A program made the position numbers and the translations under genes. From Aeromonas tecta (GTDB lineage: Bacteria; Pseudomonadota; Gammaproteobacteria; Enterobacterales; Aeromonadaceae): a stretch of 64,000 bases of DNA. Under the pieces are notes generated by a model. It ran no database searches, was not told the origin of the DNA, and worked only from the letters and a program-made list of their open reading frames with translations. The stretch's first letter is position 1. Each line of letters opens with the position of its first letter. Positions 3,891 to 21,429 of this stretch are shown here, piece after piece. The stretch is from the NCBI RefSeq assembly GCF_000820185.1, contig NZ_CDCA01000020.1, positions 714 to 64,713 of the forward strand. Reading direction: 5' to 3'.

Positions 3891-4298
3891 TCAGTCCCAA
3901 CAAGTGTTGTTGGTGGTATTGCCAAGCCGGGTGGCACTGCGGGTCCCGTTCTGGTCGATAGAGAAGATGACACAGTCACTATCTGAACCTTGTGCTCCTG
4001 ATGCCGTTGCAAACAGGGTAAATGTATTGCCGGCGGCGGAGATAACCAGATGATAAAGACCGGTATCCGAGTTATCGGATATATTCAGCGCCGAAGAAGT
4101 AGGGGCGTACTGGTTGAAGTCCATAAAATAGGTTTCTTGTCTGTTGGCGGCATCCAGCAGCATTTTTTTGGCTTCAACACGGTGGCTGACCAGCAGGTAA
4201 CGCTGATAGGAGGGGTAGGCAATGGTGCCAAGAATCGCCACAATTGCGACGACTATCATCAATTCGATGAGGGAAAAGCCTCGATAGAACCCAATCAT
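3891..4298 (-). CDS. pilE: PilE-type minor pilin
   Basis: 135 residues. A seven-residue leader ending in Gly is followed by FSLIELMIVVAIVAILGTIA, with Glu at +5, then AYPSYQRYLL, the signature of PilE-like minor pilins. Two C-terminal cysteines probably form the D-loop disulfide (…SDCVIF… and …NNTCWD). It is the first gene of the minor pilin cluster, so its promoter should lie in the 110 bp gap after ispH, where a long inverted repeat is found at 4331-4371. It could instead be annotated as a generic type IV pilin; it is too short and in the wrong context to be the major pilin. Confidence 0.85.
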   Translation of the reverse strand: MIGFYRGFSLIELMIVVAIVAILGTIAYPSYQRYLLVSHRVEAKKMLLDAANRQETYFMDFNQYAPTSSALNISDNSDTGLYHLVISAAGNTFTLFATASGAQGSDSDCVIFSIDQNGTRSATRLGNTTNNTCWD

Positions 4299-19492: not shown

Positions 19493-20020
19493 TTAACGAG
19501 AGCGGTTGCGCCGCCCATCCTTTCGATTAACCTGCACCACCGGTACCGGCATGGCCAGCGGGGCAAACTCCTTCATCACCCGACGGTAGACTTCCCGTTT
19601 GAAGGAGACGACCTGACGAACCGGGTACCAGAAGCTGACCCAACGCCAATCATCAAACTCCGGGTGACCATGACAACCGAACTGGATCCTGGACTCTTTG
19701 CCCGGATCGAGCTGTAACAAAAACCATTTTTGCTTTTGGCCAATACAGACCGGTGAACTGTCCCAGCGAACGAGTCGTTTGGGTAAGCGGTACTTCAGCC
19801 AGTTGCGGCTGGTCGCCAAGATGGTCACATCCTCGGGCTTGAGGCCTATCTCCTCGTACAGCTCACGATACATGGCCTGTTCCGGCGACTCACCATCATC
19901 AACCCCCCCCTGCGGAAACTGCCAGGAGTGCTGCCCATAGCGCTTAGCCCACAATACTTGTCCGTCACGGTTACAGATCACGATGCCGACATTGGGACGA
20001 AATCCGTCACCATCAATCAC
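19493..20020 (-). CDS. rppH: RNA pyrophosphohydrolase
   Basis: 175 residues. The Nudix box spans residues 38-60 ([23 protein letters not shown] region with REL.EE). RppH removes pyrophosphate from 5'-triphosphate or diphosphate mRNA ends and so starts RNase E-dependent decay. The start is GTG at 20020, giving [12 protein letters not shown], which matches the family N-terminus. The C-terminus is basic, as in E. coli. It leads rppH-ptsP-lgt-thyA; its promoter is in the 734-bp region shared with mutH. Confidence 0.96.
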
Positions 20021-20754
20021 GTGATCACCTTATAAAGGCTGAATCTATAAAGAGATTGTTCCACATTCACCCCGTGGCAGCAAACAAGGACTGCAATCTC
20101 CCATTCATGAATAACTTGGCATTTCAAGCCAAGTTATAAACAAATCCCAGATCCACGCCTTGCAAGTTGCCCACCCAGACTGTGCATAAGCCTGTGATCA
20201 AGCTGGTATATACAGTAGTTTCATACCAGAACATCAAATCAGCCAATATCATACCTGATTCATGAAAAAACAAAATATTCATTTAAATACATATAGTTAA
20301 TATTTTAATGCTGGATCAAGATCCATGTCTTTTGGCCCAAAGGATCCTGGCTGTCAATTGTGAACAAGTTCCACTGCTCAAAGATCCACCAAGGCTAGTT
20401 TATCCACAAGGATGGCGCATTATCTGCACCGATATGGCCGGAAAAATCGGGGCATTCTCACATTTATTTCTATTCCCAGGCCTGTCATGACCACTTTATG
20501 CCAGTTATCCAAGATTTCTGTGGATAACTATGTGCAACAGCTAGGCCAAACCCTTGGACAACTCGTTTCAACCTGGATCCTTCTCTTCCAAGAACTGGAA
20601 AAAATAGTCAAATTCCTTTAAAATCATTGCTATAGCTTATAATGATTCATCCTTGCCCCACTGTGCACAACCGGGCGAGGATCGGTTATAAAAACAGCGA
20701 TCCTCAATAAGGATCACACTGACCAGACTCATCCCCCGTTAACAGGAGCCCTCC
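20021..20754. other. AT-rich gene-free region with DnaA boxes and clustered GATC sites (DARS2-like)
   Basis: No credible gene. Three perfect DnaA boxes (TTATNCACA): 20181-20189 on the minus strand, 20400-20408 on the plus strand, 20519-20527 on the minus strand. Two boxes with one mismatch lie at 20359-20367 and 20662-20670, and a half-good TTATCCAAG at 20505-20513 faces the third perfect box in inverted orientation. Eleven GATC sites lie in 734 bp, about four times the random expectation. In E. coli the DnaA-reactivating sequence DARS2 lies beside mutH, so this may be its counterpart. It also holds the rppH and mutH promoters; TATAAT at 20638-20643 is a likely mutH -10 box. Confidence 0.55.
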
Positions 20755-21429
20755 ATGCCCGCCAATCCCCAGTCAGAGCAGGAATTGCTGACTCGCGCCT
20801 ATGCCATGGCGGGCCTCACCCTGGCCCAGCTCGCCGCCACCGCCGGGATCCCGGTACCGCGGGATCTGCGGCGGGACAAGGGCTGGACCGGTCAGTTGAT
20901 CGAATGGCAGCTCGGCGCCAGTGCGGGCAGCAGGCCGGAGCAGGACTTTCCGGATCTCGGCATCGAGCTCAAGACGATCCCGGTCGATCCTCAAGGCAAA
21001 CCGCTGGAAACAACCTTCGTCTGTGTCGCTCCTCTCATCGGGGTCAGTGGTCTGCGCTGGGAGGAATCCAATGTGCGCAACAAGCTGTCGCGGGTGCTCT
21101 GGATCCCGGTGGAGGGCCATCGTGAGATCCCCATTGGCGAGCGCCGGGTCGGCATGCCCCTGCTGTGGAGCCCGAGTGAAGAAGAGGATCGCCTGCTGCG
21201 CCAGGATTGGGAGGAGCTGATGGACATGATAGTGCTGGGGGAAGTTGAGCAGATCAGCGCCCGCCACGGCCAGGTCATGCAACTCAGGCCCAAAGCCGCC
21301 AACAGCAAGGCGCTGACCCGTGCCATCGGCCGCAATGGTCAGCCGATCCAGACCCTGCCACGGGGCTTCTACCTCAAGATCCCGTTCACCCACCAACTGC
21401 TGCAACGCCACTTCGCCCTGCCCGTTTGA
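20755..21429 (+). CDS. mutH: DNA mismatch repair endonuclease MutH
   Basis: 224 residues, close to the E. coli length. The catalytic triad of the type II-like fold is visible as Asp64, Glu71 and Lys73 in [14 protein letters not shown]. The conserved [22 protein letters not shown] and [11 protein letters not shown] stretches are present. MutH, activated by MutS-MutL, nicks the unmethylated strand at hemimethylated GATC, so its presence implies Dam methylation in this organism. It is transcribed away from rppH, across a region rich in GATC sites. It is probably a single-gene unit followed by a separate small gene. Confidence 0.97.

Follow-up and report, generated by a model that had tools for sequence, protein, structure and literature searches.

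The cores of DARS1 and DARS2 of E. coli are described in PMC5742627 as three DnaA boxes (I to III), of which box I is opposed to boxes II and III with equal spacing in both elements, and conserved DARS spacing is reported in the texts of PMC5742627 and PMC4245941. DARS2 of E. coli (455 bp) lies in the rppH-mutH gap, upstream of mutH (PMC11317965), and its IBS1 and IBS2 sites are 3 bp apart, between the core and FBS2-3 (PMC4245941). Since homologues from Vibrio and Shewanella have already been published, with Vibrio cholerae, Shewanella denitrificans, and several enterobacteria among those listed in PMC8682772, a DARS2 in Aeromonas would be an expected addition to a known kind. No paper linking DARS2 and DnaA, or the term 'DnaA-reactivating', with Aeromonas was found in the literature searched, and the sequence-only reading of this DNA had likewise known of no description of a positional counterpart in Aeromonas. 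According to published descriptions, datA also contains DnaA boxes and an IHF site, and oriC contains DnaA boxes, IHF and Fis sites, and GATC; however, datA stimulates the hydrolysis of ATP and has a different location in E. coli, and dnaA in the present genome is on another contig (C24).

The window, the whole stretch of DNA analysed here (64,000 nucleotides from Aeromonas tecta), carries rppH and mutH on the two sides of the gap in question (Table 1). MutH, RppH, and PtsP were the NCBIfam names obtained for the three genes tested, and the gene order in E. coli K-12 is thyA-lgt-ptsP-rppH-(gap)-mutH. The length of the gap was 720-735 bp among 38 Aeromonas gaps (37 genomes, one of which, G035, contributed two copies), when gene starts were obtained by extrapolation from protein alignments, versus 684 bp in E. 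coli. The gap had been described as AT-rich and gene-free, and both properties were confirmed: the G+C content was 42%, versus 59% in the whole window, and the three short open reading frames tested were dropped, being open in merely 9, 9, and 11 of the 38 Aeromonas gaps. An RNA in the gap was also dropped as a candidate, because Rfam gave no match within it.

Table 1. Coordinates of the features discussed (positions of the window unless a locus is named; box scores are matches to eight informative bases).
Feature	Position	Strand	Sequence or score	Basis
rppH (RNA pyrophosphohydrolase), left flank	19493-20020	-		NF001934, 314 bits
rppH-mutH gap, very probable Aeromonas DARS2 locus	20021-20754	.		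Synteny and array conservation
One-mismatch DnaA box	20134-20142	+	TTATAAACA	Aligned with identical E. coli sequence
Left array, box I	20167-20175	+	TTGCCCACC, 5/8	Aligned to E. coli L001 4136-4144
Left array, box II	20181-20189	-	TTATGCACA, 8/8	Perfect box; E. coli alignment
Left array, box III	20193-20201	-	TTGATCACA, 6/8	E. coli alignment
IHF-like site, in place of E. coli IBS1	20271-20283	-	1 mismatch to WATCAANNNNTTR, 2 to TAANNNNTTGATW	
Close GATC pair	20314-20323	.	GATCAAGATC	Each site in 33/38 Aeromonas gaps
One-mismatch DnaA box	20359-20367	-	TTGTTCACA inside TTGTGAACAAG	TTGTGAACAAG in 37/38 Aeromonas gaps
Segment aligned to E. coli FBS2-3 region	20380-20399	+	AAAGATCcACCA...	AAAGATC in 36/38 Aeromonas gaps
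Box V counterpart	20400-20408	+	TTATCCACA	In 38/38 Aeromonas gaps
Perfect Fis consensus adjoining box V	20415-20429	+		Consensus match, 0 mismatches
Right array, box I-like	20505-20513	+	TTATCCAAG, 6/8	Array scan
Right array, box II	20519-20527	-	TTATCCACA, 8/8	Perfect box
Right array, box III	20531-20539	-	TGTTGCACA, 7/8	One-mismatch box
Possible mutH promoter	20596-20624	+	TGGAAA-17-TAAAAT	Weak: 2 found in region, shuffle mean 2.0
mutH, right flank	20755-21429	+		NF003458, 379 bits
DARS1-like array, offsets 14 and 12	L262 1501-1535 (G000:C50:55328 on)		TTACCCACA/TGTGGATAA/TGTTCATGA; 7, 8, 6 of 8	

Three perfect DnaA boxes (TTWTNCACA) were present in the gap, as previously claimed: box II of each array and the box V counterpart. 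Shuffled gaps contained 0.09 perfect boxes on average, and none of 2000 dinucleotide shuffles reached three. The total of four in the 64-kb window was ordinary (10 of 100 shuffles reached four); what was unusual was their clustering, with three of the four in this gap. Five boxes with exactly one mismatch were found instead of the two reported (20057-20065 and 20662-20670, in addition to those at 20134, 20359, and 20531 in Table 1), giving eight boxes with at most one mismatch against a shuffle mean of 1.9 (P 0.001). The box TTATAAACA was retained in 37 of the 38 Aeromonas gaps and precedes left box II by 47 bp (46 bp in E. coli). Eleven GATC sites were also counted (shuffle mean, 3.1; none of 2000 shuffles reached 11). 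This number agreed with the earlier claim, but the density was less special than had been stated, because at least 11 were likewise present in 30 of 633 segments of 734 bp obtained by sliding along the 64 kb. Seven sites (20023, 20314, 20320, 20343, 20383, 20680, and 20699) were each found in 30-38 of the 38 Aeromonas gaps; the less-shared ones were at 20150 (one gap), 20196 and 20712 (13 gaps each), and 20576 (23 gaps). A role of SeqA or Dam at the gap is possible, in view of the recurrence of seven of the eleven sites and of a SeqA encoded in the genome.

The left array (20167/20181/20193) had offsets of 14 and 12, matching E. coli DARS1, boxes I, II, and III of which are at 2108, 2122, and 2134 of locus L040, and DARS2. 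The E. coli rppH-mutH gap itself contains two arrays with DARS offsets, at 4136/4150/4162 and 4452/4466/4478 of locus L001. We took the rppH-side array as the published core, an assignment of our own from the text of PMC4245941, because the pair of sites that fits IBS1-2 is located at L001 4229-4241 and 4245-4257. The right array had been a candidate for the DARS2 core, as the one most like E. coli and DARS1, and was dropped once IBS1-2 had been placed at L001 4229-4257. The existence of the close inverted pair at 20505-20527, which the sequence-only reading had likened to boxes I and II, was confirmed, with two mismatches in its left member (TTATCCAAG). However, this pair is part of the second array, and the E. 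coli core corresponds to 20167-20201 instead. In this left array, box I is opposed to boxes II and III, although it is weak: TTGCCCACC (5/8) versus TTATTCACC (7/8) in E. coli. Among 113 left arrays of the order, box I retained CAC (88-98%) and ended in a non-A base in 81%.

The IHF-like site is located between the core and box V, as in E. coli, and a second IHF site was three mismatches off. The Fis consensus was not retained exactly at the place of E. coli FBS2-3, and the matches adjoin box V: 20393-20407 with one mismatch, and the perfect one in Table 1. Box V, at this Fis region, had the full consensus, and a distance of 119 bp separated it from right box II, further downstream, both here and in E. 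coli. In the 77 cases with a perfect box V upstream of the right array, this distance was 119 bp in 51 and 116-120 bp in 72.

When the gap was compared with E. coli genomes by plain blastn, no homology was detected (the best of the matches listed had 45 bases and an E of 3, the chance level), and the homology was visible by anchored alignment only. In the parts listed, this alignment paired the core and TTATAAACA with E. coli, as well as the segment of Fis/box V and the array on the mutH side. Together with the position between rppH and mutH, this supports the earlier proposal of a DARS2-like element beside mutH. Among the parts listed of a cross-family alignment of 23 gaps, the islands were the core, TTATAAACA, AAAGATC..CCA, box V, and the right array. 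In comparison with E. coli DARS2, the position, the three-box geometry of the core (I on the plus strand, II at +14 and III at +26 on the minus strand), the upstream TTATAAACA, a candidate IHF-like site between the core and box V, AAAGATC..CCA before box V, box V, and, 119 bp beyond it, the second array were all shared. On the other hand, left box I was weaker and the right array stronger in Aeromonas (array scores for left and right of 19 and 21, versus 21 and 19 in E. coli, out of 24 informative bases over the three boxes), the core and second array were 338 bp apart (316 bp in E. coli), and the Fis consensus was placed elsewhere. The position, the three-box array, the IHF-like site, the Fis/box V-like segment, and the second array suggest that the rppH-mutH gap is very probably the DARS2 of Aeromonas, with a function modeled on that in E. 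coli. By this analogy, ADP-DnaA would occupy boxes I and II in a head-to-head arrangement, and the Fis located near box V would be carried to the core through bending of the DNA by IHF. ADP would then leave, and the apo-DnaA would be charged with ATP in advance of the next initiation. The site would subsequently be switched off through displacement of Fis by the ATP-DnaA around box V. A main DnaA-recharging site would thereby be placed in a genus without such a description in the literature searched.

Two arrays scoring at least 19 were obtained in none of 2000 dinucleotide shuffles of either this gap or the E. coli gap, and at least one such array was obtained at frequencies of 0.001 and 0.0005 in the two gaps. 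A blastn search with 20380-20560 gave a match in 36 of the 37 Aeromonas genomes, and the missing one (G028) was recovered through MutH; in five diverged genomes, the match was reduced to the right array (from 20502 or 20503 to 20560). Both arrays scored at least 18 in all 38 Aeromonas gaps (left, 18-20; right, 18-21), so that non-conservation of the boxes in close relatives, which had been named as grounds for refuting the proposal, was not observed. The right array outscored the left in 35 gaps and tied with it in two. The individual motifs were similarly retained: right I-II in 37, right I-II-III in 37, left I-II in 38, and left II-III in 37 gaps. Among 700 windows of 35 bp (29 representatives), the right array ranked 17th (mean conservation, 0.954) as the top DnaA cluster, the Fis/box V segment 69th (0.892), and the left core 73rd (0.890), whereas the IHF-like segment was at the median (0.739, rank 357). 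The comparison across Aeromonas that had been recommended as a check bore out the arrays in all 38 gaps.

More distant relatives were sampled at the family (60 of 61 genomes with MutH, giving 30 loci and 20 regions), order (188 of 197 genomes with MutH, giving 30 loci and 40 regions), and class (30 of 76 matches) levels, and the best 80 of at least 542 relatives were retained in the scan of named loci. Synteny with rppH was found in 219 of 258 loci located through MutH, in which some genomes were fetched twice. In 132 gaps of the order, made non-redundant by 8-mer sharing and not phylogenetically independent (including 20 from Aeromonas and 27 from named enterobacteria), the left array was present in 113, the right in 90, and both in 87, with arrays assigned by position and our own score thresholds; 13 of the gaps were shorter than 300 bp. 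Both arrays were found in all 20 Aeromonas gaps and all 11 of the Aeromonadaceae group g273. The left and right arrays were found in 27 and 24, respectively, of the 27 gaps of named enterobacteria, in 13 and two of 13 gaps of Photobacterium, in seven and two (score 17) of seven gaps of Vibrio, Aliivibrio, and Enterovibrio, and in six and none of six gaps of family f202. The distance between the two arrays was 316 bp in 26 of the 87 gaps and 338 bp in 17, with the remainder ranging from 301 to 355 bp; since, by hand reckoning, these distances share no phase, helical phasing is not claimed. Both arrays were absent from the Aeromonadaceae group g275 (0/5; gaps of 164-201 bp) and family f2 (0/8; 103-354 bp), in which rppH and mutH are still adjacent across a short gap (L189-L197, and L226-L228, L255, L257, and L259, respectively); these are probable natural losses of DARS2. 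The gaps of the singletons f189, f195, and f198 contained no array, and no array scoring at least 19 was found within the 1 kb or less upstream of mutH in 27 class-level loci without rppH synteny, one of which (L042) belongs to the same order.

The right array (20505/20519/20531) had the DARS core geometry, with box I opposed to boxes II and III at +14 and +26, and its sequence (TTATCCAAGATTTCTGTGGATAACTATGTGCAACA) resembled that of E. coli DARS1 (TTATCCACTATTCCTGTGGATAACCATGTGTATTA), which differs in its place. Box I is near the DnaA consensus in E. coli DARS1 and DARS2 (7/8), whereas right box I scored 6/8; because of this and the mostly absent CACA half among 90 right arrays, we filed the right array as core-like, not as a core. 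In E. coli, a segment of 101 bp that includes the right array was found in 5374 of 5426 genomes, with at least 95% identity at each best place. Table 1 of PMC11317965 gives two DnaA ChIP-seq peaks at DARS2 with coverages of 78 and 199, and a third, the highest, of 213. For the former two, the double box listed (L001 4149-4171) is the left box II-III pair; for the third, it is the right box II-III pair (L001 4465-4486). Since the published core is the rppH-side array, the right array falls in the 'right half' of E. coli DARS2, after loss of which a plasmid-borne DARS2 stays active (PMC4245941); a conserved second array is thus located in the half that work in E. coli found dispensable. The literature on DARS3 and the DARS2 right half, taken as text without figures or supplements (PMC4245941, PMC4585315, PMC10380432, and PMC12371093), gave no description of a second DARS2 core, and the right array appears to be an under-described, new part of the locus.

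The right array may also, or instead, be a site for another dimeric protein, which would recognize the inverted repeat TTATCC-N11-GGATAA, the most conserved part of the array. In the 90 right arrays, TTATCC of box I was conserved at 97-100%, its fifth base was C in 97% even though this position is free in both the DnaA consensus and the array score, and the CACA half was not retained; since arrays were picked by score, the conservation of boxes is partly built in, a bias that does not extend to the fifth base, the lack of CACA, or the offset test described below. However, box II retained the full 9-mer, including the TGTG outside the repeat, and box III retained GTG (90-98%), both of which are partly effects of selection by score, and the array in E. 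coli lies under a DnaA ChIP-seq peak (PMC11317965). We consider this explanation improbable. A titration cluster, in which the boxes serve only as a store of bound DnaA, with no exchange of nucleotide, appears slightly less probable still. Several strong boxes are present, and the highest coverage of the three E. coli peaks is that of the right array; however, titration requires boxes, not a fixed orientation or spacing. When 170 perfect minus-strand boxes were examined, TTATCC was found exactly 14 bp upstream of 83, and no other offset from 9 to 40 was found more than once, while TGTG was 12 bp downstream of 86 (the runner-up, +10, had 11). The constant distance from box V to right box II also argues against simple storage. 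The view that the gap is a DnaA-regulated promoter region of mutH or rppH with the arrays as operators, for which the conserved rppH leader and the possible mutH promoter with its conserved 3' half may be cited, is very unlikely, because rppH and mutH stay adjacent in the array-less g275 and f2 and so can do without the arrays, and the right array ends approximately 57 bp upstream of the candidate -35.

Returning to the gap as a DARS2, the second array (20505-20539) most likely acts as a strong site for DnaA loading, kept at a defined distance from box V, and aids DnaA assembly or reactivation; a function is likely because the spacing from box V is so constant. The mean scores of the right and left arrays were 20.6 and 18.9 in Aeromonas, versus 19.0 and 20.8 in enterobacteria, and the working core may differ between the two. 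It is possible, and we propose only tentatively, that DARS2 is two-headed across the order, consisting of the known core and a distinct second DnaA-binding module (TTATCC-N8-TGTGGATAA-N3-TGTG) approximately 119 bp from box V. This module would predate the separation of Aeromonas and E. coli, have degenerated or disappeared in most of the Vibrio-group gaps sampled, and perhaps have become the main reactivating core in Aeromonas, in which it usually outscores the left array.

Among the trans-acting factors of E. coli DARS2, DnaA, Fis, and the alpha subunit of IHF are encoded in the genome, with Fis, IHF alpha, and SeqA each above its profile cut-off. Over 453 aligned residues, DnaA was 86% identical to its E. 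coli counterpart, and all 18 residues checked, including R227, D269, R285, and L290, were kept; among the residues chosen, R227, D269, R285, L290, and R334 were taken from papers. A search of the genome for TTATCC-N8-TGTGNATAA, with one mismatch allowed, found the right array without any mismatch and two further places, a hairpin and C50:55328. The hairpin (TTATCCCC), a partial pattern match at C26:117373 apparently directly after a stop codon, was set aside. The array on C50 precedes tRNA-Asn and uvrB, much as DARS1 precedes uvrB in E. coli (bioD-uvrB gap), so that the Aeromonas counterpart of DARS1, with its three-box core upstream of uvrB, would be an array separate from the rppH-mutH locus; its upstream neighbour is an aspartate:alanine antiporter-like gene. 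UvrB on L262 (345 residues, 567 bits) was below the full-length cut-off, and uvrB was checked in this genome only. Boxes I and II of this array were unchanged in all 36 aligned Aeromonas loci, with the 37th (G013), a 51-bp edge match, left out. In seven Aeromonas genomes with long chromosome contigs, the distance from dnaA, taken as the origin, was 0.12-0.15 of the contig for DARS2 and 0.43-0.47, near the terminus, for the DARS1-like array, and the corresponding values in E. coli were 0.197 and 0.338. The presence of this DARS1-like partner suggests a complete DARS system in Aeromonas.

Several other properties of the gap were observed. The rppH leader (20021-20089) was the best-conserved stretch of the entire gap within Aeromonas, and its windows outranked all others, the arrays included, among the 29 representatives. 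In the present genome, it is directly followed by an inverted repeat (AACTTGGC...GCCAAGTT). Near mutH, two GATC sites are located within the inverted repeat GGATCG...CGATCC (20679-20702), and each was found in 30 of the 38 Aeromonas gaps. The genome G035 contains two diverged rppH-DARS2-mutH copies on contig C1, at 562 kb (L024) and 506 kb (L038), approximately 56 kb apart, with 127 mismatches in 3181 ungapped positions.
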